Both the position numbers and the translations under genes were made by a program. 64,000 bases of DNA. It comes from Pseudomonadota bacterium (lineage in GTDB: Bacteria; Pseudomonadota; Gammaproteobacteria; Xanthomonadales; Wenzhouxiangellaceae). A model generated the notes under the pieces. It worked only from the letters and a program-made list of their open reading frames with translations. It did no database searches and had not been told where the DNA came from. Shown piece after piece: positions 4,137-21,425 of this stretch (position 1 is its first letter; every line of letters begins with the position of its first letter). The DNA lies in NCBI GenBank assembly GCA_013285445.1, contig CP053448.1, forward strand, positions 2,294,001 to 2,358,000, in the 5' to 3' direction.

Positions 4137-5885
4137 ATGGCTGATCATCACGGCGGCGAACTGGTCGCCCGCATGCTCCAGGCCGAGGGCGTCGAGAAGG
4201 TTTTCGGCATCATCGACGGCACCTACTTCGGCTTCTACTCGGCACTCGACCGGCTCGGCATCGAAATCGTCACGCCGCGACACGAGACCTGCGCGGCGCA
4301 CATGGCCGGCGCCTACGCGCGGCTGACCGGAAGGCTTGGCGTTTGCATGGCCTCCAACGGCCCGGGCGTGGCCAACCTGCTGCCCGGGCTGGTGGTCGAG
4401 CAGGCCGAGGGCAACCGGGTGCTGGCGATCACCAGCGCGCGCCGGCCCGAGATCATGTACCCCGACCGCGGCGGCGCCTACCAGTGCTTCGACCAGGCCG
4501 GCGTGATCGGCCGGATCGGCAAGTTCTCTGAAGCGGTTTCTTCCTGGGAGCGCGTGCCTGAATTGATGCGCAAGGCCTTCCGCGCGTGCTTCGACGGCCG
4601 GCCCGGCGTGGTCCACGTCGATGTGCCCGAGACGATCATGAACGGCAAGTTCAAGTCCCTGCCGGCGCTGTGGCAACCGAAGCAATACCGCAATACCGAG
4701 CCGCTCTCGCCCACCCCCGAGCAGGTCGAGCAGGCCGCCGAGCTGCTGTCCAGGGCCGAGGCGCCCATGATCCACGCCGGCAGCGGCGTGATCCACGCCC
4801 AGGCCTTCGACGCGCTCGAGCGCGTGGCCGAGCAGCTGCATGCGCCGGTCACCACCAGCTGGGCGGCACGCGGAGTGCTGGGCGAGGATTCGCCGCTGGC
4901 CATCCCGATGCCGCACGTCAAGCTCAACCACCAGGTGCGCAACGACGCCGACGCGGTACTGGTCCTGGGCTCGCGCGTGGGCGAGACCGACTGGTGGGGC
5001 AAGCCGCCCTACTGGCGCAAGGCCTCCGAACAGACCACCATCCAGGTCGACCTCGACGCCAGCATGCTCGGCCTCAACAAGCCCGCCGACCTGGCCATCC
5101 AGGCCGATATCGGCAGGTTCCTCGACGCCCTGGCCCGCGCCCTGGCCGAGCGCAAGTCGGCCAGTATCGATTCGCGCAGAAAGCGGGTTTCCGAATACGG
5201 CAAGCAGATCGAGAAGGACCGCGCCGACTGGAACAAGGCGCTGGAACACGACGGTGTCCCCATGCACCCGGCGCACGTGGCCGCCACCTGCAACGCAGTC
5301 TTCGACCCCGACTCACCGATCGTCGCCGACGGCGGCAACACCGCCATCTGGGCGATGTTCCATCACCACGCCCGCGTACCCAACCGCGTGCTGTCGACCT
5401 TCAAGTTCGGCATGCTCGGCGCCGGCATGGCCCAGGCCATCGGCGCGGCCATCGCCCGGCCCGACAGGCCGGTGTGCTGCATCATCGGCGACGGCGCCTT
5501 CGGTTTTCATCCGCAGGAAATCGAAACGGCGGTGCGCAACAAGCTGAAAGTGATCTACCTGGTGCTGTGCGACAAACAGTGGGGCATGGTGAAAATGAAT
5601 CAGCAATTCGCGCTCAAGCCGCTGAAAACCCTCATGTTCAAGTCGCTCAAACCGGAGGAGACCATCAAGGCCGACCTGGGCGAGATCGCCTTCGACCAGC
5701 TGGCCGAGGCGATGGGCGCCCACGGCGAACGCGTCTCGGATGCGGCCGAACTCAAACCGGCGCTGGAGCGCGCCCTGGCATCGGGCGGCTGCGCCGTCAT
5801 CCACGTCGACGTCGACCCGGTCAAGCACATGTGGGCGCCGGGGCTGATGCACTTCAAGAAGATGCACGAGGAACCGAAAGGATAA
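4137..5885 (+). CDS. Thiamine diphosphate-dependent enzyme, acetolactate synthase-like
   Basis: A 582-residue three-domain ThDP enzyme. The N-terminal Pyr domain has the catalytic Glu at residue 50 (PRHETCAAH), the central TPP_enzyme_M domain spans about 190-330, and the C-terminal PP domain has the cofactor motif beginning GDGAF at 451. The final Asn of the usual GDG-X25-NN motif is replaced (CDKQWG). The family covers acetolactate synthase, oxalyl-CoA and benzoylformate decarboxylases, sulfoacetaldehyde acetyltransferase and others; the substrate is not evident. ATG 4137 was preferred to an in-frame ATG at 4026 because AAAAGGACA precedes it and homology-like sequence begins there. No small regulatory subunit is nearby, which argues against a housekeeping ilvB. 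It precedes a carboxylate-transporter operon, so it may belong to a catabolic pathway. Confidence 0.85.
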   Translation: MADHHGGELVARMLQAEGVEKVFGIIDGTYFGFYSALDRLGIEIVTPRHETCAAHMAGAYARLTGRLGVCMASNGPGVANLLPGLVVEQAEGNRVLAITSARRPEIMYPDRGGAYQCFDQAGVIGRIGKFSEAVSSWERVPELMRKAFRACFDGRPGVVHVDVPETIMNGKFKSLPALWQPKQYRNTEPLSPTPEQVEQAAELLSRAEAPMIHAGSGVIHAQAFDALERVAEQLHAPVTTSWAARGVLGEDSPLAIPMPHVKLNHQVRNDADAVLVLGSRVGETDWWGKPPYWRKASEQTTIQVDLDASMLGLNKPADLAIQADIGRFLDALARALAERKSASIDSRRKRVSEYGKQIEKDRADWNKALEHDGVPMHPAHVAATCNAVFDPDSPIVADGGNTAIWAMFHHHARVPNRVLSTFKFGMLGAGMAQAIGAAIARPDRPVCCIIGDGAFGFHPQEIETAVRNKLKVIYLVLCDKQWGMVKMNQQFALKPLKTLMFKSLKPEETIKADLGEIAFDQLAEAMGAHGERVSDAAELKPALERALASGGCAVIHVDVDPVKHMWAPGLMHFKKMHEEPKG

Positions 5886-6025
5886 GCCTCCGCAGAACTA
5901 CTGCGCGGGCGACTGACGGCGTCCGGCGGTGCTCGAAATCCTCATGTATTCGCACATACACTGCGGTTCCTGCGCTCCGGCGGCCACCGTCAGCCGCCCG
6001 CTCGCTACGTTCTGCGAAGGCTTAT
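5883..6025. repeat. Long imperfect palindrome between ThDP gene and BASS operon
   Basis: The left arm starting TAAGCCTCCGCAGAAC (5883-5898) pairs with GTTCTGCGAAGGCTTA ending near 6024 (15 of 16 positions). The arms continue inward through GCGGGCGACTGACGG (5905-5919), matched by CCGTCAGCCGCCCGC (5987-6001), and through a GGCGG/CCGCC part. The total extent is about 143 bp with a central region near 5940-5965. The left end touches the ThDP stop codon. The structure could fold in RNA as a long hairpin and act as a terminator or processing site, or could be a miniature repeat element (MITE-like or REP-like). No transposase is nearby, and only one copy is visible in the window. Confidence 0.75.
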
Positions 6026-6058
6026 TTGGGCAAATATAGATGAAGGTGAGTTTCTTCC

Positions 6059-6964
6059 GTGCGTTTCGACCCTGACAGTCTGGTCCTGCTCAACGTCATC
6101 CTGGCGGCGATGATGTTCGGCGTGTCGCTGAACCTGCGGCCTGCCGATTTCCGCCGCGTGATCCTGTCGCCGGTGGCGCCGGCGGCGGGGCTGGTGGCGC
6201 AGTTCCTGCTACTGCCGGCGGCGACCTGCGCGGTCACCTGGCTGCTCGAGGTCGATCCGGAGCTGGCGCTGGGCATGATCCTGATCGCCGCCTGCCCCGG
6301 CGGCAACTTCTCCAACATCATGACCTTCATGGCGCGCGGCTCGGTCGCGGTGTCGGTGTCGATGACGGCCGTCTCCAGCGTTGCCGCGATCGTGCTCACG
6401 CCGATCAACTTCGCCTTCTACGGCTGGCTCAACCCCTACACGCGCGACTACCTCACCACCATCAGCATCGAGCCCGGCGGCATCCTGCTGCTGGTCGTGC
6501 TGGTGCTCGGCCTGCCGCTGCTGCTGGGCATGCTCGCCGGCCAGCGCTGGCCGCTGATGGCCGCGCGCAGCGAGCGCGTCGTGCGGGCGGTCTCGCTGCT
6601 GATCCTGCTCGCCTTCGTGGCCATCGCCTTTGCGCGCAACTTCGACCTGTTCCTGGCCCGCTTCCAGTCCTTCGTCTGGCTCGTCATCGGCCACAACCTG
6701 ATCGCCTTCGGGCTCGGCTTCGCCATGGCGCGGCTCGCCCGGCTGCCGGCCGCCGACCGGCGCGCGGTGACCATGGAGATCGGCATCCAGAATTCCGGCC
6801 TGGGTCTGGTCATCCTGTTCACCTTCTTCCCGGAGGCCGGCGGCATGCTGCTCATCGCCGGCTTCTGGGGCGTGTGGCACCTGGTCGCCGGCATCACCCT
6901 GTCGCAGGTCTGGGCGCGCATCCCGCTCGACGGGCAGCGCTTGCCGGCAAAGGACGCCGCATGA
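6059..6964 (+). CDS. Bile acid:sodium symporter (BASS) family transporter
   Basis: A 301-residue polytopic membrane protein with nine to ten hydrophobic segments covering nearly its full length. The pattern is BASS-like: LNLRPADFRRV early, then ACPGGNFSNIMTFMARGSVAVSVSMTA (about residues 79-105) and EIGIQNSGLGLVI (about 239-251), the two conserved crossing-helix regions that hold the Na+ and substrate sites. Such transporters carry organic anions (bile acids, pantoate, pyruvate and other carboxylates) with sodium. The start is GTG at 6059, supported by AAGGTGAG eight bases upstream; an ATG at 6040 is out of frame. The stop overlaps the next start by 4 bp, so it leads a four-gene operon. Confidence 0.88.
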   Translation: MRFDPDSLVLLNVILAAMMFGVSLNLRPADFRRVILSPVAPAAGLVAQFLLLPAATCAVTWLLEVDPELALGMILIAACPGGNFSNIMTFMARGSVAVSVSMTAVSSVAAIVLTPINFAFYGWLNPYTRDYLTTISIEPGGILLLVVLVLGLPLLLGMLAGQRWPLMAARSERVVRAVSLLILLAFVAIAFARNFDLFLARFQSFVWLVIGHNLIAFGLGFAMARLARLPAADRRAVTMEIGIQNSGLGLVILFTFFPEAGGMLLIAGFWGVWHLVAGITLSQVWARIPLDGQRLPAKDAA

Positions 6965-7896
6965 AAAAGCGCATCCTCATCACCGGTGCGGCCGGCTACA
7001 TCGGCCACCAGCTCGGCAACCGCCTGGCCCGGGATTTCGCCGTGTTCGGCACTGACATCCGCGAGCGAAACGACCTGAAGTTCCCGCTGCATTTTCTTGA
7101 TATCCGATCGGAAAAATTGACAGGTTTCATGCGCGAGCACGGCATCACGCACGTCGTGCACCTCGCCTCGGTGCTGCAGGCCTCGAAGGACCGGCAGCGC
7201 GATTTCGACATCGACGTCGGCGGCACGCGCAATGTCCTGCAGGCCTGCGTGGCGACCGGCGTGCAGCACCTCACCGTGACCAGTTCGGGAGCGGCCTACG
7301 GCTACCACGACGACAACCCCGACTGGATCGACGAGGACGACCCACTGCGCGGCAACGAGGCCTTCGCCTACGCCGACCACAAGCGCCAGGTCGAGGAGAT
7401 GCTGGCCGACTGGCGCAACAGGCACCCCGGGCTCAGGCAGCTGGTGCTGCGCCCCGGCACGGTGCTGGGCGCCCACACCCGCAACCAGATCACCGCCCTG
7501 TTCACGGCCCGCCGCATCCTGGTGCTGAAAGGCCACGACTCGCCGTTCGTGTTCATCTGGGACGAGGACGTGCTGGCGATTCTCGAGAAAGGCATCCGCG
7601 AGGACGCCGAGGGCATCTACAACCTGGCCGGCGACGGCGCGCTGACCCTGCGCGACATCGCCCGCCGCCTGGGCAAACCCACGCTCACCCTGCCCGTCGC
7701 CCTGGTCAGGGCGGGACTGCGCGTCGCCAGGTGGCTGGGCAGGCCCACCCGTCCGGAGCAGATCGACTTCCTGCGCTACCGCCCGGTGCTGTCGAACCGC
7801 CGCCTGAAGGAAGCATTCGGCTACACCCCGAAGAAGACCTCGGCCGAAGCCTTCGACTACTTCGCCGAACACGCCATGGGCCGGCGGCAGGAATGA
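6961..7896 (+). CDS. NAD(P)-dependent sugar epimerase/dehydratase-type oxidoreductase
   Basis: A 311-residue extended short-chain dehydrogenase. It has the Rossmann motif GAAGYIG (residues 9-15), SSG at 108-110 and the catalytic Tyr137-xxx-Lys141 (YADHK). The family includes UDP-glucose 4-epimerases and related sugar enzymes. A C-terminal part after about 220 resembles the substrate-binding lobe (YNLAGDGALTLRDIA). The substrate is unknown; a transport-linked operon without other sugar-nucleotide genes makes a role on a small hydroxyacid or lactone possible. The start overlaps the BASS stop (ATGA), and the stop overlaps the SDR start (ATGA), so translation is probably coupled. Confidence 0.82.
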   Translation: MKKRILITGAAGYIGHQLGNRLARDFAVFGTDIRERNDLKFPLHFLDIRSEKLTGFMREHGITHVVHLASVLQASKDRQRDFDIDVGGTRNVLQACVATGVQHLTVTSSGAAYGYHDDNPDWIDEDDPLRGNEAFAYADHKRQVEEMLADWRNRHPGLRQLVLRPGTVLGAHTRNQITALFTARRILVLKGHDSPFVFIWDEDVLAILEKGIREDAEGIYNLAGDGALTLRDIARRLGKPTLTLPVALVRAGLRVARWLGRPTRPEQIDFLRYRPVLSNRRLKEAFGYTPKKTSAEAFDYFAEHAMGRRQE

Positions 7897-8678
7897 AGGT
7901 GGTGCTGATCACCGGCGCCGCCGGCGGCCTCGGGCGGGCGCTCGCCCGGAGCTGGTTCGACGACGGCCACGCGCTCGTCCTGGCCGATCTGGACGAATCG
8001 CGGCTGGAAGCGCTCGCGCGCGAGTTCGACGCGCCGGAGCGCCTGCTGACCCGCGTCCTCGACGTCACCGACCGCGGGGCGATCGCGGGCCTGCTCGAGG
8101 CCACCCGAAAGCGCTTCGGCCGACTCGACATCCTGGTCAACAACGCCGGCATCACCCACCGATCGCCCGCGCACCGCACCGACGCCGAAGTCTTCAGCAG
8201 GGTCATGGCCGTCGACTGGCAGGCGCCGGTGGAACTCGCCCTCGCCGGCCTCGACCTGCTGCGCGAATCCAGGGGCCTGATCGTCAACATCGGCTCGATG
8301 GCCGGCTGGATGCCCCTGCCCGGCCGCGCCGCCTACGGCGCCGCCAAATCGGCGCTGACCCAGTTCTTCGAGGTACTGCGCCTGGAGCTGGCCGACGACG
8401 GCGTCGGCGTGCTGATGGTCTACCCGACGTTCCTGGAAACCGACATCGAGGCCCACGCCCTCGGCCACGACGGCCTGCCGGCCCGCCACGCCCAGAGCCG
8501 CATCGGTCGACAGCGCAGCGCCGAATGGATGGCCGCACGCGTCGCCCGCGCCGCGGCCAAACGGCAGCGCTGGCTGTTCCCCAACCGCCTCGCCTGGATC
8601 GGGTCGCTGGTTTGGCGAGTCACGCCCGGGCTGTACCTGAAGCTGATCCGGCGGAAGTTCGAGGGGGAGCTGCGCTGA
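7893..8678 (+). CDS. Short-chain dehydrogenase/reductase
   Basis: A 261-residue classical SDR. It has TGAAGGLG (residues 7-14) for NAD(P) binding, NNAG at 83-86, and the catalytic set Ser135, Tyr148 and Lys152 (YGAAK). The C-terminus is Arg-rich with a weakly hydrophobic segment (LAWIGSLVWRVTPGLYLKLI), as in SDRs that associate with membranes. The start was chosen at 7893 because it overlaps the epimerase stop by 4 bp and gives the glycine motif its normal distance from the N-terminus. It probably oxidises or reduces a hydroxyl/keto group in the same unknown pathway as its operon partners. Confidence 0.87.
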   Translation: MKVVLITGAAGGLGRALARSWFDDGHALVLADLDESRLEALAREFDAPERLLTRVLDVTDRGAIAGLLEATRKRFGRLDILVNNAGITHRSPAHRTDAEVFSRVMAVDWQAPVELALAGLDLLRESRGLIVNIGSMAGWMPLPGRAAYGAAKSALTQFFEVLRLELADDGVGVLMVYPTFLETDIEAHALGHDGLPARHAQSRIGRQRSAEWMAARVARAAAKRQRWLFPNRLAWIGSLVWRVTPGLYLKLIRRKFEGELR

Positions 8679-9403
8679 TGACGCCCTGGCTGTGGCTGGG
8701 CCTGTGCATCCTGATCTCGTCGACGATCGAGGCGATCACCGGCTTCGGCTCGATCGTCATCGCCCTGGCGCTGGGCGCGCTGCTGCTGCCAATCTCATCG
8801 ATGCTGCCGGTGCTGGTGCCGCTCAACATCTTCATGACCGGCACCATCGCCTGGAAGAACCGCCGCCACATCGACAAGGCGTTACTGCTGAAACTGGTCC
8901 TGCCGCTGATGGCCGCCGGCACGCTCGCCGGCTACTTTCTGAGCCCCTGGCTGGGCGAGAGCCTGCTCAAGGCGCTGCTCGGCGCCCTGATCATCTGGTT
9001 CGCGCTGCGCGAGCTGTGGCGCCTGTACCGCCACGTCGCCAGCCGCCGCCACCCGGCCTGGCTGAGCCGCGCGCTGACCTTCGCCGCCGGCATCACGCAC
9101 GGCCTGTTCGCCTCCGGCGGCCCGCTGCTGGTCTACGCCCTGGCCGGCACCCGGCTCGACAAGGGCGGCCTTCGCGCCACGCTGGTCACCGTGTGGTTCA
9201 GCCTCAACGCCGGCCTGACCGTCGCCTTCCTGGTCGACGGCACGCTCGTTCCGGCGCTGCCGAAAGTGGCCGCCTACCTGCCCGTGCTCGGCACCGGCTA
9301 CCTGCTCGGGGAGTTCCTGCACCACCGCCTGGATGAACGGCGCTTCCGGCAGCTGGTCTACGTGCTGCTCATTGTTACCGGGATGGCGCTTATTCTGAGG
9401 TGA
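8678..9403 (+). CDS. TauE/SafE family permease (sulfite exporter type)
   Basis: A 241-residue membrane protein with about seven to eight hydrophobic segments and the internal repeat characteristic of TauE/SafE: EAITGFGSIVIALALGALLLP near residue 15 and GITHGLFASGGPLLVYALAG near 137. Members export sulfite, sulfoacetate or other anions. GAGGGGGAG precedes the ATG, which overlaps the SDR stop by one base (TGATG). From codon 122 to nearly the end, the gene is duplicated at 15596-15918 (7 differences in 323 bp). The last 13 codons differ more from that copy, so the two 3' ends have distinct histories. It is the last gene of the BASS-epimerase-SDR-TauE operon. Confidence 0.87.
   Translation: MTPWLWLGLCILISSTIEAITGFGSIVIALALGALLLPISSMLPVLVPLNIFMTGTIAWKNRRHIDKALLLKLVLPLMAAGTLAGYFLSPWLGESLLKALLGALIIWFALRELWRLYRHVASRRHPAWLSRALTFAAGITHGLFASGGPLLVYALAGTRLDKGGLRATLVTVWFSLNAGLTVAFLVDGTLVPALPKVAAYLPVLGTGYLLGEFLHHRLDERRFRQLVYVLLIVTGMALILR
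9042..9364 (+). repeat. Left copy of 323-bp direct repeat (3' part of tauE)
   Basis: This segment matches 15596-15918 at a constant offset of 6554 bp, with no gaps and seven mismatches that I counted by eye, mostly at third codon positions. The alignment can be continued ungapped to both stop codons (9403 and 15957), but identity falls sharply after 9364. The left copy is inside an intact gene. The two copies flank the Fic-Mod-Res genes. Confidence 0.93.
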
Positions 9404-9429
9404 AGCGCCACCAGGACAGGGCGGCGCTT
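9403..9429 (+). terminator. Candidate terminator hairpin after tauE
   Basis: AAGCGCC (9403-9409) is complementary to GGCGCTT (9423-9429) with a 13-base loop, right at the tauE stop codon. No strong T-run follows (CTCCGTTC), so it may be a weak or Rho-assisted terminator. It separates the transport operon from the fic gene. Confidence 0.45.
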
Positions 9430-9498
9430 CTCCGTTCAGACTGGCGCCGTGGCGTCAGAAAGAGCATGAAAGAACGTGGAACCACTCGCGAATTAATA

Positions 9499-9538
9499 AG
9501 GTAATACGCTTTACATTACCTAGTTTAGTTCGTACTAT
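9499..9538 (+). promoter_or_regulatory. Promoter with overlapping operator for fic-mod-res
   Basis: A sigma-70-type promoter is visible: TTTACA (9510-9515), 17-base spacer, TACTAT (9533-9538). A perfect inverted repeat AGGTAAT - 9 bases - ATTACCT (9499-9505 and 9515-9521) overlaps the -35 box, an arrangement expected for a repressor site. The fic ATG lies 26 bases after the -10 box. The region (9485-9545) is markedly AT-rich. The regulator is unknown; the Fic protein has a C-terminal winged-helix-like part and could autoregulate, which is inference. Confidence 0.6.
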
Positions 9539-9563
9539 TGCCTCGTTATCCGGCGACATTCAG

Positions 9564-10613
9564 ATGCATTCTCTCGAACCCGAATTTCTCGACGAGCTCA
9601 GTTTCAACGCGGATCACCTCGCCACCCTGCGGGCACTGGGGGAGTATCGCGGCAAACAGAGCCTGTTCTTCCATCAGGCACCGGAGACGCTGAAGACGCT
9701 GCGCCAGGCGGCAGTGATTGAATCGACCGAGTCGTCCAACCGGCTCGAGGGCGTGACGGTGGCCCCGGCGCGCCTGGAGCCCCTGTTGCTCAAGCGCACG
9801 GACCCGCGCAACCGCTCGGAGCAGGAAATCACGGGCTATCGCGATGCGCTGGCCCTTATTCACGAATCCGGGCGGGAGATGGCGCTCACACCGAATGTCG
9901 TGCTGCAGCTCCACGGCCTGCTCTATCGCTACATGCCGCAGCGCGGCGGGCGCTGGAAGAACACCCAGAACGAGATCACCGAAACCGGGCCAGACGGCAC
10001 CACGCGGGTCCGATTCGAGCCAACGCCCCCGCACCTGGTATCGATGCAGATGGACCAACTTGCCGAACGTTACGCCAAGGCGGTTGATGGGGCGCGCCAG
10101 GACCCCCTGGTGCTGATTCCCCTAGCGGTCTTCGATTTTCTCTGCATTCACCCCTTCAACGACGGCAACGGCCGGGTGGCCCGCTTGGTTACCCTAATGC
10201 TGCTCTACCATTTCGGTTATGAAGTGGGCCGCTACATCAGCCTGGAGCGGATCGTGGAGGCGACCAAAGAGGGCTACTACGACACCCTGGAGGCCAGTTC
10301 ACAGGGCTGGCATGATGGCCGGCATGATGTCATGCCGTGGCTGGAGTACTTCTGGGGCACGCTGCTGCGTGCCTACCGGGAATTCGAGGAACGCGTGACC
10401 CAGGTCCGGTATGCGCCGGGGGCGAAAACCGAGCAGGTTCGCCTGGCTGTCTTTCGCCGCACTCAGCCCTTCGCCATTTCGGAAATCGAGGCCGAGTGCG
10501 CCGACGTCAGCCGAGACATGGTTCGCCATGTGCTGCGTCAGATGCGCGAGGAAGGCCTGCTAGAAGTCATCGGCCGCGGCCGCGGCGCCAAATGGCATCA
10601 GATCAAATCGTAG
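9564..10613 (+). CDS. Fic family protein (AMP-transferase fold) with C-terminal winged helix
   Basis: A 349-residue protein. The Fic active-site motif HPFNDGNGR begins at His196, so the catalytic His, the phosphate-binding loop and Arg are intact. An N-terminal inhibitory motif of the S/T-xxx-E-G/N type is present (SNRLEG, residues 58-63), which marks it as a self-inhibited Fic protein whose Glu blocks ATP binding. A C-terminal 75 residues (from about 270) look like a winged-helix DNA-binding domain, as in many stand-alone Fic regulators. Known Fic proteins transfer AMP or other phosphate-containing groups to target proteins. It is the first gene before mod and res with its own promoter, so it probably regulates or guards the restriction system. 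The TAG stop is supplied by a REP-like repeat. Confidence 0.92.
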   Translation: MHSLEPEFLDELSFNADHLATLRALGEYRGKQSLFFHQAPETLKTLRQAAVIESTESSNRLEGVTVAPARLEPLLLKRTDPRNRSEQEITGYRDALALIHESGREMALTPNVVLQLHGLLYRYMPQRGGRWKNTQNEITETGPDGTTRVRFEPTPPHLVSMQMDQLAERYAKAVDGARQDPLVLIPLAVFDFLCIHPFNDGNGRVARLVTLMLLYHFGYEVGRYISLERIVEATKEGYYDTLEASSQGWHDGRHDVMPWLEYFWGTLLRAYREFEERVTQVRYAPGAKTEQVRLAVFRRTQPFAISEIEAECADVSRDMVRHVLRQMREEGLLEVIGRGRGAKWHQIKS

Positions 10614-10640
10614 GTCGGGGCCGCGCCCCCGACGAACAGA
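10611..10640 (+). repeat. REP-like palindromic repeat, copy 1
   Basis: The element starts TAGGTCGGGGCCGCG and contains GTCGGGG/CCCCGAC arms around a 6-base loop. Its TAG is the fic stop codon. It matches copies at 19871 and 19971 with two or three differences over about 26 bases. It can form a GC-rich hairpin immediately after the stop and may attenuate transcription between fic and mod. Confidence 0.8.
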
Positions 10641-10667
10641 ATCCAGAGAAACCACCGGAACAAGGCA

Positions 10668-12533
10668 ATGGCAAAAGAGAAAACAGACGCTGACATCGCC
10701 GCCAGCCCCAACCCCGCCGATCTCAAGCGCGAAGCCCTGAAGCAGGTTCTCCCGGAAGCGATCAGCGAGGGAAAGGTCGACATCGAGGCACTCAAGCGCG
10801 CCCTGGGAGAAGATTTCGTGATCGACGGCGGCGAACGCTACCGGCTCGACTGGGTGGGCAAGTCCGAGGCCTACAAGGTACTGCAGACACCCACGACCGC
10901 CACACTCCGGCCCCGCCGGGACCAGTCGGTCAATTTCGATACGGCCAGCCATGTCTTTATCGAGGGCGAGAACCTCGAGTCGCTGAAAGTGCTGCAGAAG
11001 GCCTACTTCGGCAAGGTCAAGCTGATCTATATCGATCCCCCGTACAACACCGGCAACGACAACTTCGTTTACCCAGACCGATTCCAGGAAAGCAAGGAAG
11101 ACTATCTGAAACGGGTCAACGAACTCGACGACGACGGTGCGTTGATGCGCGAGGGGTTTTTCCGCAAGAACAGCCGCGAATCCGGCCACTACCACTCCAA
11201 CTGGCTGAGCATGATGCTGCCGCGGCTCTACATCGCCCGGAATCTCTTGCATGAGCAAGGTGTGATCTTTGTTTCATGCGACGACAACGAGGTTTATAAC
11301 CTGCGTTGCTTGATGAATGAGATTTTTGGGGAAGAGAACTTTGTTGCTCAGCTCGTATGGAAGGCCCGAAAATTTACCGACACCCGCGCCGTTACTAACG
11401 TGTCGACTGACCATGAGTACTTGCTGTGCTATTCACGTCAGTCAGAGTTTTCGTTCTACGGATTAGATAGAGATGAAAGCAAGTTTTCTAACCCGGATGA
11501 AGACCCCCGTGGCCCCTGGATGAGTCGAAGCATGCTCGGTCTCGCCACGCGCGAACAGCGCCCCAACCTCTACTATTCCATCGTTGACCCCGATTCCGGA
11601 AGGGAGTTTCCTGCTCCCGAAGACCGAGGCTGGAGGTACTCAAAAAATCGCATGAAAACTATGATTCAAGAAGGCCGCGTTCTATTTCCGAAATCGGAGT
11701 CTGGCAGACCTCGAGAGAAAAAATTCAGATCAGAGATGCAACAGGACAGGATCTCATTCCCATCGATCATCCAGAATGTTCACACGTCTGATGGAACCGC
11801 GGAAGTAAGAGAGCTCCTCGGCCAACAAATCTTCGACTTTCCAAAGCCGGTGGAATTGCTGAAAACGCTAGTTCAGCAAGCTTTGCCTGAGGAAGGTATT
11901 GCACTCGATTTCTTTGCAGGATCCGGCACCACAATGGAGGCGGTGCTGCGCCAGAACGCCGAAGACAACGGCAACCGTCGCTGCATCCTGGTCCAGCTAC
12001 CGGAACCGCTGGATACCGACAACGTGGAATTCTCCGATATCGCCCAGGTGGCCCGCACCCGCATTCGTGCAGTGATCGAGGACCTTAAAGCGACAGACGA
12101 CCTGGCCTCGCCCTTTCCCGAGGACGAGGGCTTCAAGGCCTATACCCTGGCCCCTTCAAACTTCAAGCAGTGGCGCGGTGAGGCAATCGAATCCGCCGAT
12201 GATCTGGCCGAGCAGGTCAAACTGTTCATGAGTGCCGAAAAGGACGGCGCCGATACCGAAGCCGTGCTGTATGAGTTACTGCTGAAACTGGGATATGAAC
12301 TGACGGCGAGCGTTGAAACTATCGAAGTGAATAGCCACCCGGTTCATTCAGTAGACGAAGGCCGCCTGCTGCTGCTCCTTGAAGGCTTTGCAGAAAGCAT
12401 GATCGAACCGTTGATCGAGCGAAAGCCCGAACAGATCGTTGCCCTCGATTCGATCTTCGAGGACTCGGACCCGCTCAAGTCCAATCTTTCCCTGCAGTGT
12501 CGGGATGCCGACATCCGCTTTGTCTGCATCTGA
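10668..12533 (+). CDS. mod: Type III DNA methyltransferase (Mod), beta class
   Basis: A 621-residue site-specific N6-adenine methyltransferase. Motif IV DPPYNTGND begins at Asp123 and precedes motif I DFFAGSGTT at 414-422, the beta-class order typical of type III Mod. The central part (about residues 185-410) would hold the target recognition domain. That part is visibly lower in GC and richer in AAA/TTT/GAA codons than both ends (approximately 11230-11930), suggesting exchange of the recognition domain. Mod binds the target and supplies the specificity of the Mod-Res complex. The stop overlaps the res start by one base (TGATG). AAGGCA sits upstream of the ATG; the gap from fic is 54 bp. Confidence 0.93.
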   Translation: MAKEKTDADIAASPNPADLKREALKQVLPEAISEGKVDIEALKRALGEDFVIDGGERYRLDWVGKSEAYKVLQTPTTATLRPRRDQSVNFDTASHVFIEGENLESLKVLQKAYFGKVKLIYIDPPYNTGNDNFVYPDRFQESKEDYLKRVNELDDDGALMREGFFRKNSRESGHYHSNWLSMMLPRLYIARNLLHEQGVIFVSCDDNEVYNLRCLMNEIFGEENFVAQLVWKARKFTDTRAVTNVSTDHEYLLCYSRQSEFSFYGLDRDESKFSNPDEDPRGPWMSRSMLGLATREQRPNLYYSIVDPDSGREFPAPEDRGWRYSKNRMKTMIQEGRVLFPKSESGRPREKKFRSEMQQDRISFPSIIQNVHTSDGTAEVRELLGQQIFDFPKPVELLKTLVQQALPEEGIALDFFAGSGTTMEAVLRQNAEDNGNRRCILVQLPEPLDTDNVEFSDIAQVARTRIRAVIEDLKATDDLASPFPEDEGFKAYTLAPSNFKQWRGEAIESADDLAEQVKLFMSAEKDGADTEAVLYELLLKLGYELTASVETIEVNSHPVHSVDEGRLLLLLEGFAESMIEPLIERKPEQIVALDSIFEDSDPLKSNLSLQCRDADIRFVCI

Positions 12534-15280
12534 TGGCCATGAGACTTCGATTCGATCCAGATCAGGGCTACCAGAACGATGCGATCTCGGCCGTGACCGA
12601 ACTCTTCCGGGGGCAGCCGGGCCCGGAGTCGGGTGTCTCGCAGTTCGAGCAGGATGCGCTGACCAGTCTCCAGCTGACGGAGGTCGGCCTGGCCAATCGC
12701 TGTGTGCTGACGCCGGAACAGTGGCTCGACAATCTGCGCGCGGTACAGCAGATGCATGGACTGGAGCCATCCGAGCGACTGGAGGTGCTTGCGGATTCCG
12801 ACGGTCAGGTGCTGGGCAATTTTCCGAATTTCACCGTGGAAATGGAGACCGGCACCGGCAAGACCTACGTCTATCTGCGCACCCTGCACGAGCTGCACAA
12901 GCAATTCGGCTTCTGCAAGTTCGTGATCGTCGTGCCCTCTGTCGCCATTCGCGAGGGGGTGCTGAAGTCCCTGCGCATCACCGAGCAGCACTTTCGGCAA
13001 CTCTACGACGCCCAGCGCGTGGAGTTCACCGCCTACGAGTCGGCGCGGGTACACCAGCTGCGCAACTTCGCGCTTTCCGATGCCCTGCAGGTGCTGGTGA
13101 TCAATATCGACGCCTTTGCCAAGGATGCCGACTCGGCGCCGGGGTCGCGCAACAAGGGCAATGTGATCAACCAGCTTCGGGAAACCGGGATTCGGCCGAT
13201 CGAGTTCATCCAGCAGACCCGGCCGATCGTGGTGCTGGACGAACCCCAGAACCTGGAAACCGACAAGCGCAAGCGCGCCATTGCCCGGCTGAATCCGATG
13301 TGCGCCCTGCGCTATTCGGCGACTCACCGCGACACCTACAACCTGGTCTACAGCCTGGACCCCGTTCAGGCTTACGAACTGGGGCTGGTCAAGCAGATCA
13401 GCGTGGATTCGGTGGTCGACGAGAGCACAGAGAACCAGGCATTCGTGGAGCTGGAGAGCTTCAACTCCAGCTCACGCTCGATTTCAGCCAAGGCCACCAT
13501 CTGGGTCAATCAGGCCAGGGGCCCGAGGAAAAAGCGCGTCACATTGAAGAACGGCAGTGATCTCTACAGGCTGTCCAAGCAGCGCGAAATCTATCGCAAT
13601 GGCTTTATCGTCAATGAGATCGACGCCGAGTCGGGTTTCGTGCGTTTTGCCAACGATGTGACCGTGCGCGTGGGCGTCCCGCACGGCGCCGCCGGCGAAC
13701 AGGTCATGCGCATGCAGATCGAGGCGACGGTTCGCCGGCACTTCGAGAAAGCCAGACGCCTGGAGCCGCTGGGCATCAAGGTGCTCAGTGTGTTCTTTAT
13801 CGACCGCGTTTCCAGCTACCGCGTTTATCACGAGGATGGCTCGACCTCGCTGGGACCGTTCGGCGAATGGTTCGAGGAGATCTTTCGTCGCTACGCCGCC
13901 ATGCCCGAATATCAGAGTCTGTACGACCTGGAGGCCCAGCAGGTCCATAACGGCTACTTCGCCCGCGACAAGCAGGCGCTGTCTCCGTACTCCGAGAGTA
14001 CGTTCAAGACCAAGTCAGGCGCCGAGGGCGGTGCCTTCGAGTTGATCATGCGCGACAAGGAGCGTCTGCTGGATGTCGACGAGCCGCTCCGGTTCATATT
14101 CAGTCACTCGGCCCTGCGTGAGGGTTGGGACAATCCCAACGTCTTTCAGATCTGCACGCTGGCCGAAACCCGCTCGGAGCTGCGCAAGCGCCAGGAGATC
14201 GGCCGCGGGCTGCGGCTTTGCGTCAACCAGGAAGGCGAGCGGGTCATGGACCAACATCTCAACCGCCTGACCGTGATCGCCAATGACACCTATGAGGATT
14301 TCGCCCGGCAGCTTCAGTCCGAAATGATGGCCGACGGCGTGGCCTTCAAGGAAGGCATGGTCAAGAACGAGCGCAAGAAGGTGCAAGTGCGCTTGCGCAA
14401 GGGATTCGAAGCCAACCCGGATTTCCTGGCGCTGTGGGAACGCATTCGGGATCGGACCCGCTACCGAGTGAAGTATCGAACTGAGGAGCTCATCCAGCGA
14501 GCCACCGACCGGGTGCGGGACGACCTCCCCGCCATCGGCCGCCCCCAGGTCGTTCTGACTCGAACGGACCTGGACATCACGCGCGCCGGGATCGACTCCC
14601 GGGTCACCGGCGTCCGACCGGAGTATGTAGCCACGCGTTTCCGAATCCCGGACCTGCTTGCCGAAATTCAGGGTCGCACCGGTCTGTCCCGTTCCACGGT
14701 GGGCCGGATTCTGCTCGACTGCGGGCGCCTGGGCGAAGCGCTGAACAATCCGCAATCCTTCATCGACCAGACGGCGGCCTTGATCAATGCAGAATTGCGC
14801 AGGTTGCTGGTGCAAGGGGTCGAGTACGAAAGGATCGGCGACAAGGTCTGGGAGATGCGCCGATTCGAAGACGGCGAGATCGAAACCTTCATCGACAACG
14901 TCCACGAAGTGACGAAGCCCGAGAAAACACTGTTCTCGCACATCGTAATCGACGGTGATTCAAGCCCCGAACGTCGTTTCGCCGAGGACTGTGAGAACAA
15001 CGACGATGTGTTGTTCTATTTCAAGCTCCCGCGATGGTTCGTCATCGACACCCCCGTCGGCGAATACAACCCGGACTGGGCGCTGGTCTTTCGGGGCGAC
15101 AGCACCCTCTACTTCGTGGCAGAAACCAAGAGTGCCAGCGAGCGTGAGGACCCGGCCGGGGAGCTGCTCCGCTTGGTGGAGCGCATGAAACTCAATTGCG
15201 GTAAGAAACACTTCAAGCAATTCGAGGAAATTGTCTTCAGAAAAGCGCCGAGCCTGAAGGAACTGGTGAGCCAGGGCTAA
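12533..15280 (+). CDS. res: Type III restriction endonuclease (Res)
   Basis: A 915-residue ATP-dependent restriction subunit. The helicase part has Walker A ETGTGKT (105-111), a DEPQ motif II at 236-239, SATHRD further on, and motif VI with QEIGRGLRL near 560. The C-terminal nuclease domain carries the PD...ExK pattern (PDW at 847-849, ETK at 864-866). With Mod it would cut DNA with two head-to-head unmethylated sites after ATP-driven sliding. ATG 12533 overlaps the mod stop (TGATG); a second ATG lies two codons downstream. Length and motif order are normal, so the system looks intact. Confidence 0.93.
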   Translation: MAMRLRFDPDQGYQNDAISAVTELFRGQPGPESGVSQFEQDALTSLQLTEVGLANRCVLTPEQWLDNLRAVQQMHGLEPSERLEVLADSDGQVLGNFPNFTVEMETGTGKTYVYLRTLHELHKQFGFCKFVIVVPSVAIREGVLKSLRITEQHFRQLYDAQRVEFTAYESARVHQLRNFALSDALQVLVINIDAFAKDADSAPGSRNKGNVINQLRETGIRPIEFIQQTRPIVVLDEPQNLETDKRKRAIARLNPMCALRYSATHRDTYNLVYSLDPVQAYELGLVKQISVDSVVDESTENQAFVELESFNSSSRSISAKATIWVNQARGPRKKRVTLKNGSDLYRLSKQREIYRNGFIVNEIDAESGFVRFANDVTVRVGVPHGAAGEQVMRMQIEATVRRHFEKARRLEPLGIKVLSVFFIDRVSSYRVYHEDGSTSLGPFGEWFEEIFRRYAAMPEYQSLYDLEAQQVHNGYFARDKQALSPYSESTFKTKSGAEGGAFELIMRDKERLLDVDEPLRFIFSHSALREGWDNPNVFQICTLAETRSELRKRQEIGRGLRLCVNQEGERVMDQHLNRLTVIANDTYEDFARQLQSEMMADGVAFKEGMVKNERKKVQVRLRKGFEANPDFLALWERIRDRTRYRVKYRTEELIQRATDRVRDDLPAIGRPQVVLTRTDLDITRAGIDSRVTGVRPEYVATRFRIPDLLAEIQGRTGLSRSTVGRILLDCGRLGEALNNPQSFIDQTAALINAELRRLLVQGVEYERIGDKVWEMRRFEDGEIETFIDNVHEVTKPEKTLFSHIVIDGDSSPERRFAEDCENNDDVLFYFKLPRWFVIDTPVGEYNPDWALVFRGDSTLYFVAETKSASEREDPAGELLRLVERMKLNCGKKHFKQFEEIVFRKAPSLKELVSQG

Positions 15281-15420
15281 ACCCCATGATTTAATCAGCA
15301 GGCATTCAGAGCGCACCTGGCTCAGGCCCCGGAGCCGCCAGCCCTAATCCGGAAACGTTCCTATGACCTCGCGATAGAATCTTGCTGCACGTTCAGCGGG
15401 CTTCCGTCAATTGCTTTTGA

Positions 15421-15595
15421 TTATTCATTTTCGCGCGAAATGCCCAGCTCGTCCCAGAGAAACTGGTAGGACACCGGTTCCCTGCCATCCTGCTCGGCCA
15501 TATCACGTTCACGGACTTCATAGCTGCGACCAGGCACGGCCTTCGTCGGCCAAGCTTTGCGTACGAGCGAAGATCTGAACACGCTCCGGGCGACG
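15421..15595 (-). pseudogene. C-terminal remnant of an unidentified gene
   Basis: The minus strand reads an open frame of about 57 codons ending in TAA at 15421, with protein-like composition (end ...FLWDELGISRENE). Its 5' end is cut off where the truncated tauE copy begins at 15596. I do not recognise the family, and the fragment could also be a chance frame. The 140 bp before it (15281-15420), after res, shows no gene or clear signal. Confidence 0.3.
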
Positions 15596-15957
15596 GCCGC
15601 CGCCACCCGGCCTGGCTGAGCCGCGCCCTGACCTTCGCCGCCGGCATCACGCACGGCCTGTTCGCCTCCGGCGGCCCGCTGCTGGTCTACGCCCTGGCCG
15701 GCACCCGGCTCGACAAGGGCGGCCTTCGCGCCACGCTGGTCACCGTGTGGTTCAGCCTCAACGCCGGCCTGACCGTCGCCTTCCTGGTCGACGGCACGCT
15801 CGTTCCGGCACTGCCGAAGGTGGCGGCCTACCTGCCCGTGCTCGGCACCGGCTACCTGCTCGGGGAGTTCCTGCACCACCGACTGGACGAACGGCGCTTC
15901 CGGCAGCTGGTTTACGTGATGTTGATCGCGACAGGGGCAGCGCTTGTCATTCGGTAA
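15596..15957 (+). pseudogene. 5'-truncated second copy of tauE (right direct repeat)
   Basis: This copy corresponds to codons 122-241 of the TauE/SafE gene at 8678-9403, ending in its own TAA. The first 323 bp match at 316 positions; the last 39 bp, including the end of the reading frame, are more divergent though still conservative at protein level. It lacks the first half of the protein and its start, so it should be non-functional. Downstream flanks of the two copies (after 9403 and 15957) are not similar. Confidence 0.9.
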
Positions 15958-16036
15958 CGCACGAAATCCGCAGTTCAACGGCATGCCGGCTCGACCAGAA
16001 TTTCGCGGACCAGGCCAAATGTTCAGGCGCGCCAAC

Positions 16037-16300
16037 CTAATCGTAATGCGTCCATAGTCGAAGTACTTTGACGACTTTCTGATCTTCGAGCACCTGGTAG
16101 ACCAGGCGGTGCTGAATATTGATGCGACGCGAATACGCGCCCGCCAGGTCACCCACGAGTTTCTCGAAAGGCGGCGGCTTCCGGATAGGATCTTCGGCGA
16201 TCAGCGCCAGCAATTCCCGGGCTTTAGGCTTCAGTCCGCTGGCTGCGAGTTTTCTGGTGTCTTTCCGGGGCTGCCTGGTGTAGACAAGCTTCCAGCTCAC
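16037..16300 (-). CDS. yoeB: YoeB/Txe family toxin (ribosome-dependent mRNA endonuclease)
   Basis: An 87-residue basic protein of the RelE superfamily. It has the YoeB hallmarks: WKLVYT near the start, KPPPFEKLVGDLAGAYSRRIN in the middle with Glu and Arg in the expected active-site region, HRLVYQV, and a C-terminal WTHYD where YoeB proteins end in a His-Tyr. GTG at 16300 is preferred over ATG at 16321 because it overlaps the antitoxin stop (GTGA) and matches family length. The toxin would cleave mRNA in the ribosomal A site when free of YefM. Confidence 0.9.
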   Translation of the reverse strand: MSWKLVYTRQPRKDTRKLAASGLKPKARELLALIAEDPIRKPPPFEKLVGDLAGAYSRRINIQHRLVYQVLEDQKVVKVLRLWTHYD

Positions 16301-16539
16301 CAGCCCAGGTCCTCGTCGCACTCGTCAACGGGGGTGGCCATGCCTTCCCGGATGGATTCGCGCATTCCGGGCACGGAGAGCAGAAACAGGGTCTCCTGGA
16401 TTGCCGCCCAGTCTTCCTCGGCGACGAGAACCGCCTTGTTGCGCTTGCCGGTGATCACGATTGGCTGATGCGATTCAGCCGTCTCGTCGATCAGGCGATA
16501 GAGATTGCTCCTTGCCTGGGTTGCGGTAATGCCCGACAT
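16297..16539 (-). CDS. yefM: YefM/Phd family antitoxin
   Basis: An 80-residue protein with the Phd/YefM N-terminal DNA-binding fold (MSGITATQARSNLYRLIDE) and a central ITGKRNKAVLVAEEDW motif. The C-terminal part is acidic and would wrap the toxin. It is encoded just upstream of YoeB with a 4-bp overlap, the standard antitoxin-first order. It represses the operon together with the toxin through sites upstream (see the operator at 16573-16612). Confidence 0.92.
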   Translation of the reverse strand: MSGITATQARSNLYRLIDETAESHQPIVITGKRNKAVLVAEEDWAAIQETLFLLSVPGMRESIREGMATPVDECDEDLGW

Positions 16540-16572
16540 GGTGAACGCTTCCGGAAGATCTGGTCATGTTTA

Positions 16573-16612
16573 TTGTACGCCAAATGGTACGTGCGTCAAT
16601 ACGTACGCCAAT
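16573..16612 (-). promoter_or_regulatory. Candidate YefM-YoeB operator
   Basis: Just upstream of yefM there are two direct copies of GTACGCCAA (16575-16583 and 16603-16611) with GGTACGTGCGTC between them, giving several overlapping GTAC-centred palindromes. YefM of E. coli binds palindromes centred on TGTACA, so these GTAC cores are good operator candidates. Core promoter boxes are not clear. Confidence 0.5.
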
Positions 16613-16637
16613 TCGTGACGGCGCTGATCGTCAGCGA

Positions 16638-17186
16638 TCATTCGTCCTCGCCCGGCATGGCGCCGGGATCGGGCAGCAGCAGGTCTTCGAGGAAGAAGGC
16701 GGACAGCTCCGAGCGGCCCGACAGGCCGGCCTTGCGATAGATCGCGCGCGCCTGCTCGCGCACCGTGCGTTCGGCGGTATCGCGCAGCGCGGCGATCTCC
16801 TTGAGGCTCAGCCCCTTGAGCAGCAGCAGGCCGATTTCCGCTTCGGCCGGACTCAGCGCCCAGGCCGCGAACTGGTCCTGGATGGCCTCACCCAGCCCCC
16901 GCAGCGTCGACTGGTAGCGCGCCTGCCAGCGCCGCGACTCGGCTTCGGCGGAATCCAGACGCACGTTGAGCCGTTGCGCGCGCCGGCGCGCGCGCAGCAT
17001 CTGCGCCAGGACGACGCCGAACATGCTTGCGGCCAGCAGCAACAGGGCCAGTTCGACCAGCACGTGCGACATTTCGACCCCTTCGGCGGAGTCCGAGAGC
17101 AGGTCCCAGCCGATCAGCAGCGCGATCACGCCGAACGCGACCAGGATCACGGCCGAGCCCTGGGTTCGGGAAGGAGTCGTCGTCAT
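16638..17186 (-). CDS. Membrane-anchored LuxR-type transcriptional regulator
   Basis: A 182-residue protein with two N-terminal transmembrane segments (about residues 12-30 and 40-60), a charged coiled-coil-like stretch (about 62-95) and a C-terminal LuxR/GerE helix-turn-helix (LSPAEAEIGLLLLKGLSLKEIA and a recognition helix around TAERTVREQARAIYRKAG). There is no receiver or autoinducer domain, so any signal would come from the membrane part. ATG 17186 is preferred over a codon eight residues upstream because GAGG precedes it. It is divergent from the cytochrome b gene, with 95 bp between, and could regulate it. Confidence 0.85.
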   Translation of the reverse strand: MTTTPSRTQGSAVILVAFGVIALLIGWDLLSDSAEGVEMSHVLVELALLLLAASMFGVVLAQMLRARRRAQRLNVRLDSAEAESRRWQARYQSTLRGLGEAIQDQFAAWALSPAEAEIGLLLLKGLSLKEIAALRDTAERTVREQARAIYRKAGLSGRSELSAFFLEDLLLPDPGAMPGEDE

Positions 17187-17281
17187 TTGGAGCCTCGTCG
17201 AGCGAAACACGTCATGTGCCGGATTCTATTCCAGGTCGATCGGTCGCAAGCTGACCCCAGGCAAGAACGAGGCAGACGGAC

Positions 17282-17902
17282 ATGAACACGCTCGCACCCG
17301 AAGCTCGAGTCAAGGTCTGGGATCCGCTGGTGCGCATCGGCCACTGGCTGCTGGTCCTCGGCTTTTTCACCAACTACATCATCGAAGACGAATGGATGAC
17401 GCTGCACAGCTGGGTTGGCTACACCCTGCTTGCCGTCGTGCTGCTCCGGATACTGTGGGGATTCGTCGGCACGCGCCACGCGCGCTTCGGCGATTTCGTG
17501 CGTTCACCGGCCACCACCGCCCGATACCTGGGCGACATGGCGCGCGGCCGGGCCAGGCGCTACCTGGGACACAACCCGGCCGGCGCCGTCATGATCCTGC
17601 TGCTGCTGGCAGGCATGGTCGCCATGGCGTTTACCGGCATCGTGCTCTACGCCGTCGAGGAAAACGCCGGGCCGCTCGCCGGCTGGGTCGCCGAAAGCGG
17701 CGAAGCCGCCGGGCAGGCCGTGTGGACGGTCTCGGAAGATTTCTGGGAAGAAACGCACGAGGTGCTGGCCAACCTGATGCTCGCCCTGGTCATCTTCCAC
17801 GTCCTCGGCGTGCTGGTCGCCGGTCGCATGCACCGCGAGAATCTCGTCCGCGCGATGATCACCGGACGCAAACGGGCGGGAACAACCGGAACCGAAGACT
17901 GA
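17282..17902 (+). CDS. Cytochrome b561-type membrane protein
   Basis: A 206-residue protein of the bacterial cytochrome b561 / Ni-Fe hydrogenase cytochrome b group. Four transmembrane segments are visible (about 17-35, 42-62, 98-120 and 160-180). Candidate haem ligands are His21 in RIGHWLL, His42 in LHSW, and His in ETHEVLANL and FHVLG near the fourth segment. It begins KVWDPLVRIGHW, as expected for this family, and likely passes electrons between quinols and a periplasmic partner. No c-type cytochrome is next to it. GAGG lies upstream of the ATG. Confidence 0.88.
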   Translation: MNTLAPEARVKVWDPLVRIGHWLLVLGFFTNYIIEDEWMTLHSWVGYTLLAVVLLRILWGFVGTRHARFGDFVRSPATTARYLGDMARGRARRYLGHNPAGAVMILLLLAGMVAMAFTGIVLYAVEENAGPLAGWVAESGEAAGQAVWTVSEDFWEETHEVLANLMLALVIFHVLGVLVAGRMHRENLVRAMITGRKRAGTTGTED

Positions 17903-19459: not shown

Positions 19460-19873
19460 ATGACCTCGCGCAAGCTGCCGCCCGAAAACGAGATCGAAGA
19501 GAAGTTCATCCTGACCGGCGGACCGGGCGGACAGCACGTCAATCGCACCGAAACCGGCGTGCAGTTGCGTTACAACGTGGTCGATTCAGAGTTCCTGTCC
19601 GAGCCCGTCAAGGTCCGCCTGCTCGAGCTGGCGGGCCGAAGAGCCGACAGCGGCGGCGTGATCACGATCGTGGCCAGGAACCATCGCAGCCAGCACCGCA
19701 ACCGCGAGGAAGCACGCGAGCGGCTGGCCGAGCTGATCGAACAGGCCCGCCATAAACCGAAAAAACGCATTCCGACCCGACCAAGCCGGGCGGCGAAGAA
19801 GCGCTGGAAGAAGAAAAAACAGCGTAAAAAGGAAATCAAGCGGGCTAGAAAGACGCCCCGGATCGACGAGTAG
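19460..19873 (+). CDS. arfB: ArfB/YaeJ ribosome-rescue peptidyl-tRNA hydrolase
   Basis: A 137-residue protein with the release-factor catalytic motif GGPGGQHVNR (GGQ at residues 23-25) and a highly basic Lys/Arg-rich C-terminal tail (about 95-135), which in ArfB enters the empty mRNA channel. It rescues ribosomes stalled on non-stop mRNAs by hydrolysing peptidyl-tRNA without a stop codon. The start is preceded by AGGAG. The stop TAG is the first three bases of a REP-like repeat. Confidence 0.95.
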   Translation: MTSRKLPPENEIEEKFILTGGPGGQHVNRTETGVQLRYNVVDSEFLSEPVKVRLLELAGRRADSGGVITIVARNHRSQHRNREEARERLAELIEQARHKPKKRIPTRPSRAAKKRWKKKKQRKKEIKRARKTPRIDE

Positions 19874-19900
19874 GTCGGGGCCGCGTCCCCGACGGACAGC
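19871..19900 (+). repeat. REP-like palindromic repeat, copy 2
   Basis: It starts TAGGTCGGGGCCGCG, with perfect GTCGGGG/CCCCGAC arms around CCGCGT. The TAG is the arfB stop codon. It shares about 24 of 26 positions with the copy after fic and lies exactly 100 bp before copy 3. The rest of the gap to the next gene (to 20108) shows only copy 3 and a ribosome binding site. Confidence 0.82.
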
Positions 19901-19970
19901 GCGCGGAATCGGAACGTACGACGGTACACCGCCCGGACTACGATTCGAGGCAACCCCGATCCTCTCGCCG

Positions 19971-20000
19971 TAGGTCGGGGCCGCGTCCCCAACGGACGCG
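19971..20000 (+). repeat. REP-like palindromic repeat, copy 3
   Basis: It has the same TAGGTCGGGGCCGCG start as copies 1 and 2, with a CCCCAAC right arm (one mismatch in the stem). It is not attached to a stop codon. Together with copy 2 it forms a closely spaced tandem pair in direct orientation downstream of arfB. Confidence 0.8.
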
Positions 20001-20108
20001 GCTTTCGCCATTGACGCGGTAAATGGCATCATGTCGTTCTGGACATTGGGTCGAACGCCACGCACTGACATGTCGTGAGACTTGTCCGTGATTCGAAGGA
20101 GATAACGC

Positions 20109-21425
20109 TTGAGACACTATTCACACTGGCTGGCCGCTACCCTGCTGCTGGTTGCAATCCCCCTTGCCGCGATGGCGCAAACGCGCGCTTTCGTCGGCGC
20201 GAGAGTCATCCCGATCGATGGTGCGCCGATCGACAACGGTACGCTTGTCGTTGTCGACGGCAGGATTGCCGCTGTCGGCAGCCGAAACGAGGTGGCCATT
20301 GACGATGATGCGCAAATCGTCGAGCTGGGCGCTGGTACGGTCATCATGCCCGGCATCGTCGACACCCACAGTCATATCGGGGAGGTCTCAGGCGCCGACC
20401 GTGCCGGGCCGATACAGCCCGAAGCCCGGGCGCTGGACTCGGTCAACATTCGCTCTTCGGGGCTCAAGCGCGCGCTGGCCGGCGGCATTACCTCGGTCAA
20501 CATCATGCCCGGCTCGGGCCATCTGATCAGCGGACAGACCCTGTATCTGAAGCTGCGCGATGGGAACACCGTCACCGAACTGGCCTATCGCCGCGACGAT
20601 GGCGCGATCGCGGGTGGCCTGAAAATGGCCAATGGCACCAACTCGATGCGCGACGCACCTTTTCCCGGCACGCGCGCGAAGTCGGCCGCGCTGGTGCGCG
20701 CCGCCTTCATCCAGGCCAGCGAGTATGCCGACAAGCGCAAGGATGCGGGCGCGGACCAGCAGCCCGCACGGGACCTGGGTATGGAGGCCCTGGCCGAAGT
20801 CCTCGACGGCACGCGCATGGTCCATTTTCACAGCCACCGTCACGACGATCTGATGACCGCCATCCGTCTGCGCGATGAGTTCGACTTCCGCATGGTGCTA
20901 CATCACACCTCGGAAGCCTGGCGAGTCGCCGAAGAGATCGCGGCCGCAGACGTGCCGGTCTCGCTGATCATCATCGACAGCCCCGGTGGCAAACTGGAGG
21001 CCCTGAATCTGGAGGCGCGGTCGGCGCCCGCGCTTGAACGGGCCGGTGCGCAGGTGGCGCTGCACACCGACGACTGGATCACCGACTCTCGCTATTTCCT
21101 GCGCATGGCCGCCATGGCGGTGCGCGCCGGCATGTCGCGCGAGGCGGCCCTGCGCTCGGTGACCCAGGCCGGCGCCGACATGCTGGACCTGGGCGGCCGG
21201 ATCGGCTCGCTCACGCCGGGCAAGGACGCGGATTTCGTGATTCTCTCCGGCGACCCGTTCAGCGTCTACACGCGCGTGCTCGAGACCTGGGTCGAGGGCG
21301 AGCGCCGTTTCAATCTGGACGATGATGAGGACCGCCTGGTCGCCGAAGGCGGCTTCAACGCACTGTCCGATGACGACGGCGCCGGACACATCCATGCCCA
21401 CGGCAACGACGGAGGCCACCGATGA
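20109..21425 (+). CDS. Secreted amidohydrolase, probably metal-dependent
   Basis: A 438-residue protein with a signal peptide (residues 1-23, cleavage likely after AMA) and an amidohydrolase (imidazolonepropionase-like, COG1228-type) fold. Metal ligands look intact: HSH in IVDTHSHIG, His in MVHFHSHRH, HH in MVLHHTSEAW and HTDDW near residue 318. The C-terminus has GSLTPGKDADFVIL, the family composite-domain signature, then an acidic and His-rich tail. The start codon is TTG at 20109; AAGGAG seven bases upstream fixes it. The substrate is unknown, with cyclic amides or dipeptides as general possibilities. The stop overlaps the next start by 4 bp, coupling it to a paralogue. Confidence 0.87.
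   Translation: MRHYSHWLAATLLLVAIPLAAMAQTRAFVGARVIPIDGAPIDNGTLVVVDGRIAAVGSRNEVAIDDDAQIVELGAGTVIMPGIVDTHSHIGEVSGADRAGPIQPEARALDSVNIRSSGLKRALAGGITSVNIMPGSGHLISGQTLYLKLRDGNTVTELAYRRDDGAIAGGLKMANGTNSMRDAPFPGTRAKSAALVRAAFIQASEYADKRKDAGADQQPARDLGMEALAEVLDGTRMVHFHSHRHDDLMTAIRLRDEFDFRMVLHHTSEAWRVAEEIAAADVPVSLIIIDSPGGKLEALNLEARSAPALERAGAQVALHTDDWITDSRYFLRMAAMAVRAGMSREAALRSVTQAGADMLDLGGRIGSLTPGKDADFVILSGDPFSVYTRVLETWVEGERRFNLDDDEDRLVAEGGFNALSDDDGAGHIHAHGNDGGHR

Follow-up and report, generated by a model that had tools for sequence, protein, structure and literature searches.

Restriction-modification genes have been described as insertions with long target duplication, as set out in PMC3031569 and PMC1643837 (citing Nobusato et al. 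2000; Furuta et al. 2010). Gene-end duplications of 109-950 bp have also been obtained in the laboratory and attributed to single crossovers in which the circular partner was missing some of the homologous stretch (PMC3240628; Amarir-Bouhram et al. 2011). Here we describe a locus in which a Fic gene and a Type III restriction-modification gene pair lie between two copies of the 3' part of the host gene tauE. The locus is most likely a new and clear-cut case of a route already known for the movement of defence cassettes, and we give a probability of roughly 0.6 to its origin by a single crossover at tauE with incoming DNA in which a tauE 3' fragment was linked to fic-mod-res, the copies being homogenised later in their well-paired part. 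It offers a well-bounded scar of the entry of a defence cassette without its own mobility genes into a chromosome.

The complete tauE gene (8678-9403, forward strand) of the window, by which we mean the whole 64-kb stretch that was analysed, encodes a 241-aa permease of the TauE/SafE family (PF01925, E=4e-24) with 84-86% amino acid identity to the single orthologues of four congeners. A repeat search of positions 7500-17500 independently recovered a single long direct repeat, its copies offset by 6554, and the alignment of 9042-9391 with 15596-15945 showed 95% identity over 350 bp (555 bits in the 64-kb window). The next-best repeat pair of the window reached 47 bits, and the best off-diagonal match in shuffled windows (n=3) 43 bits. 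The initial annotation had reported a 323-bp repeat (9042-9364 and 15596-15918) with seven mismatches, and these were indeed found at 9073, 9256, 9265, 9271, 9328, 9334 and 9358. Its map proved equally accurate: the two copies have the same orientation, fic, mod and res lie between them, and the right copy (15596-15957, forward strand) is truncated at its 5' side and joined to the tail of a gene on the opposite strand, a remnant of a SEC-C protein. The truncation removes 364 bases from the start of the gene and places the edge exactly at 9042/15596. A search of the complete single-contig genome (3,494,817 bases) found tauE at two sites, both in this repeat, and the repeat at no unrelated place; a dispersed repeat was rejected, only two genomic places being occupied.

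The insert sits between two native chromosomal flanks, and the right copy runs on into native chromosome, because the regions upstream and downstream are both syntenic with the congener G011. Upstream of the insert the match covers 5000-9382. Downstream of its tauE gene this congener has a TPR gene and then YoeB/YefM, which correspond to 16036-16607 of the window at 81% DNA identity, and the synteny resumes further downstream at 19505-20998. The YoeB/YefM toxin-antitoxin pair (16037-16539, reverse strand; TIGR02116, E=4e-23; PF02604, E=1.7e-18) is the native downstream neighbour. All four congeners with tauE (G003, G010, G011 and G025) have a single full copy; no second tauE fragment was seen in these four, none of them carries both copies without the island, and no island proteins were found in the regions fetched around their tauE loci, where the downstream comparison for G010 is confined to the roughly 900 bp between tauE and the end of the contig. 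The target is singly present in these insert-free relatives, as in insertions with long target duplication; the four congeners are not conspecific, and their nearest tauE alleles are about 80-86% identical.

A rival origin is an insertion at the tauE 3' end by an integrase that was lost later, the element having supplied a replacement gene end. In integrase islands at tRNA genes or guaA, the element supplies a replacement end for the gene while a fragment of the gene is displaced to the opposite side, and a restored gene end on one side with a displaced fragment on the other is the layout seen here. The usual attachment sites, however, are far shorter than 316 bp, and the near-identity of the copies over 316 bp far exceeds them. 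The nearest of eight PF00589 matches in the genome, a family that covers tyrosine recombinases only, lies about 91 kb from the right repeat, the 64-kb window holds no tRNA, and the displaced fragment has no counterpart in any congener. We regard this origin as highly improbable; an integrase or tRNA-site island was rejected as a candidate, with no tyrosine recombinase nearby and no tRNA in the window.

More importantly, the two tauE copies are mosaic. Over 9042-9355 they are identical at 308 of 314 positions (98.1%, six differences), and each is about 79-82% identical to the congeners over this segment. In the last 48 bp before and including the stop codon (9356-9403 on the left) the identity drops to 31/48 (64.6%, 17 differences), a value within the 29/48 to 38/48 seen between species. 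The two tails are thus as far apart as those of different species, a difference of the kind expected of two alleles. The best change point lies at 9358, with a likelihood gain of 25.6 compared to a maximum of 10.0 in 2000 permutations; it divides the left copy into a near-identical part (9042-9357, forward strand) and a diverged tail (9358-9403, forward strand). Fisher's test of 6/314 against 17/48 differences gave p=4e-12, with a segment boundary picked after the differences had been viewed, and the permutation test, which scans every boundary, gives the fairer assessment. The tail signal is carried by just 46-48 bp. The nearest relatives over the tails are G010 for the left and G011 for the right, tied at 37/48, and 48 bp are too short to tell the donor's tail from the resident's. 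The homology to tauE extends through both stop codons (9401-9403 and 15955-15957), and the right copy keeps an intact reading frame and stop. All six differences in 9042-9355 are synonymous and fall on third positions (p about 0.0006 to 0.0014 under random substitution), and for this reason the near-identical part looks like variation between functional alleles and not like pseudogene decay. A long-decayed pseudogene fragment is disfavoured by these synonymous differences and the intact right frame and stop, and the divergence of the tails (17/48 versus 6/314) speaks against a simple, recent duplication in tandem of the end of the resident tauE. The mosaic fits two functional alleles brought together or a recently homogenised pair.

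This allele difference at the repeat end helps to tell homologous entry from blind target duplication, two routes that are inseparable where the copies are identical or eroded. A target duplication of the kind described by Nobusato et al. 2000 would have put the cassette into tauE without any homologous donor fragment and duplicated 316 bp of target, and the pattern published for such events is one of restriction-modification genes flanked by long direct repeats, with neither IS nor integrase. Such an insert must, on the other hand, have started by chance with 46 bp that encode an in-frame, in-register TauE C-terminus, and we hold this route to be very unlikely. Two alleles of one gene end in close proximity could also be produced by a chimeric assembly in which two strain variants of the tauE locus were merged. 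To this we attach hardly any credence: the genome is assembled as one contig with low contamination (0.72), and a truncated join to a SEC-C remnant is unlike the overlap of two strains.

A C-terminal remnant of a SEC-C-motif protein is encoded at 15421-15579 on the reverse strand, with homology over 15430-15528 (a 33-aa match, at 64%, with the end of a congener protein of 462 aa), and about 67 bp without any assignment separate the end of this homology (15528) from the start of the right tauE copy (15596). The DNA query 15281-15612 gave no match in the congeners. Searching the whole genome with the full-length congener protein returned no other SEC-C match at E<=1e-10, and a split of the SEC-C gene by rearrangement within this genome was rejected on that basis. 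In G028 the SEC-C protein match covers only the first 60 residues (83% identity), and because of this limited match the breakage of this gene may extend to further genomes of the genus.

Single-crossover integration is the simplest account of this architecture, and we infer a crossover, a form of donor molecule and a homogenisation as follows. The incoming DNA would have contained a tauE 3' fragment that began at the equivalent of 9042 and was joined to foreign DNA including the broken SEC-C gene. One crossover within the shared tauE stretch would then have left, on the upstream side of the cassette, a complete tauE ending in one allele's tail and, on the downstream side, a fragment that lacks the 5' part and ends in the other allele's tail. 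The well-pairing part of the copies would have stayed, or become, near-identical, while the last ~46 bp would have kept the original allele difference. The abrupt start of the right copy at 15596 is that of a Campbell-type repeat ending where the donor fragment began. If the donor differed at species level, recombination would have had to cross roughly 20% divergence, with homogenisation needed afterwards; a conspecific donor with a different tail is the alternative, and the data fit either. The initial annotation had proposed that the island entered by homologous recombination at tauE or with a donor tauE fragment. This proposal is borne out in part and, in the form of entry at tauE with a donor tauE fragment, would be the best-supported reading; the tail mosaic is the strongest new evidence for it, next to the syntenic flanks, the island-free congeners and a restorable TauE frame.

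The join at 15528-15596 is illegitimate DNA and is left unexplained by single-crossover integration. The rival here is a linear donor that recombined homologously at just one of its ends, within tauE or upstream of it, and was joined illegitimately at the other, where a broken SEC-C gene met the resident tauE at 9042; the right copy would then be the resident one and the left copy, or the left tail, donor DNA. A truncated SEC-C gene meeting a truncated tauE looks like such a join, and a comEC-family gene in the genome makes the uptake of linear DNA possible. This gene allows DNA uptake and is no proof of it, and control genomes, that of E. coli among them, give matches to the family as well. 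When such events were tested in E. coli, however, the duplication products were mostly single crossovers of circular molecules, and one-sided events led to deletions (PMC3240628). A linear one-sided event would give a final map identical to that of the single crossover, and the evidence separates the two weakly. We consider the linear donor rather unlikely and retain single-crossover integration as the preferred reading.

The cassette itself begins after an A+T-richer spacer at the left island edge (9404-9563; GC 0.51 versus 0.68 in the left flank). No congener match was found for the DNA query 9350-9563, and a longer island DNA query aligns to G028 from 9495 onward. The fic gene (9564-10613, forward strand) encodes a putative SoFic-like AMPylase with HPFNDGNGRVAR, the N-terminal inhibitory motif SNRLEG and a C-terminal HTH (PF02661, E=2.9e-15; PADLOC SoFic, E=3.7e-37). 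It is followed on the same strand by mod (10668-12533), predicted to encode a Type III DNA adenine methyltransferase with DPPY and then FAGSG (PADLOC MTase_III, E=3e-178; PF01555), and by res (12533-15280), the predicted Type III restriction subunit with TGTGKT, DEPQ and PD...ETK (PADLOC REase_III, E=8e-275; PF19778, PF04851). All three genes are intact and, by motif inspection, retain their catalytic motifs; their GC content is 0.55-0.63 compared with 0.68 in the left flank. With DPPY before FxGxG in Mod and helicase plus endonuclease domains in Res, mod-res has the features of a Type III restriction-modification system, as judged from the encoded proteins. Short REP-like palindromes (GTAGGTCGGGGCCGCG..CCCCGACG) occur at 10610-10639, 19870-19899 and 19970-19997 of the window, and one of them lies in the 54-bp gap between fic and mod. 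When the mod DNA was compared with L131 and L132, both ends proved conserved and about 11348-11906 failed to align, as would be expected from an exchanged target-recognition domain.

Because the same trio occurs at non-tauE sites, namely in G019, in a Rhodocyclaceae MAG and in a gammaproteobacterial MAG, fic-mod-res is a mobile unit, in which Fic is optional. The G028 contig is too short for its site to be assigned. Among 80 Mod loci, three (L054, L058 and L067) have a close Fic neighbour, and a weak Fic match of 27% lies beside L120. Five other genomes of the class have the same Fic family and no mod-res match in the fetched stretch, two of the five stretches ending soon after fic. Fic as a fixed component of the Type III unit was rejected, since most Mod relatives are without Fic and the Fic family is also found without mod-res nearby. 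The literature that we searched held nothing on point about an association of Fic with Type III systems. In G019 and G061 (L131 and L130) mod-res lies in the general neighbourhood of a gene that we take to be DUF255/thioredoxin-like, possibly a shared insertion region in this family. In G130 (L146, 8342-13685) a related Fic gene precedes a gene whose 1401-aa product has a nucleotide-binding-like motif but lacks any Pfam match; this product may be another partner with which the Fic family is associated.

The scar also predicts a reversal of the proposed entry, in which tauE would be restored and the defence genes dropped. Computed recombination of the copies in register deletes 6,554 bp and leaves a continuous TauE frame of 241 aa that ends in the right tail and adjoins YoeB/YefM; we infer that such a deletion could occur in the future. 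That the repeats would release a 6.55-kb circle of fic-mod-res and one tauE 3' fragment, able to re-enter the tauE locus of related cells through normal homologous recombination and without integrase or transposase, is very improbable in our estimate.

In comparison with known systems, the cassette shares the Mod and Res families, the motif order and the gene order with Type III restriction-modification systems, and differs in that a Fic gene precedes mod-res, as in a minority of the close relatives. With the SoFic-like standalone Fic AMPylases it has in common the Fic domain, the N-terminal inhibitory motif, the C-terminal helix-turn-helix and the PADLOC SoFic match; its Fic protein scores below the NCBIfam SoFic cut-off, however (39.7 versus 550 bits), and is encoded upstream of mod-res. 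As in the single crossovers of PMC3240628, a partial gene-end duplication, here of 316-362 bp, flanks the insert with one copy truncated, whereas those events involved a laboratory plasmid into which part of the host's own gene had been cloned and the present one is natural, with a diverged tail. Finally, the locus shares with the long-target-duplication insertions, as described in PMC3031569 and PMC1643837, restriction-modification genes bracketed by long direct repeats of host-gene sequence, their absence from relatives and the lack of IS or integrase at the ends. It differs from the insertions described there in that the repeats have tails of different alleles and the insert brings an in-frame end for tauE, two features of the DNA that point to a locus-specific homologous exchange.
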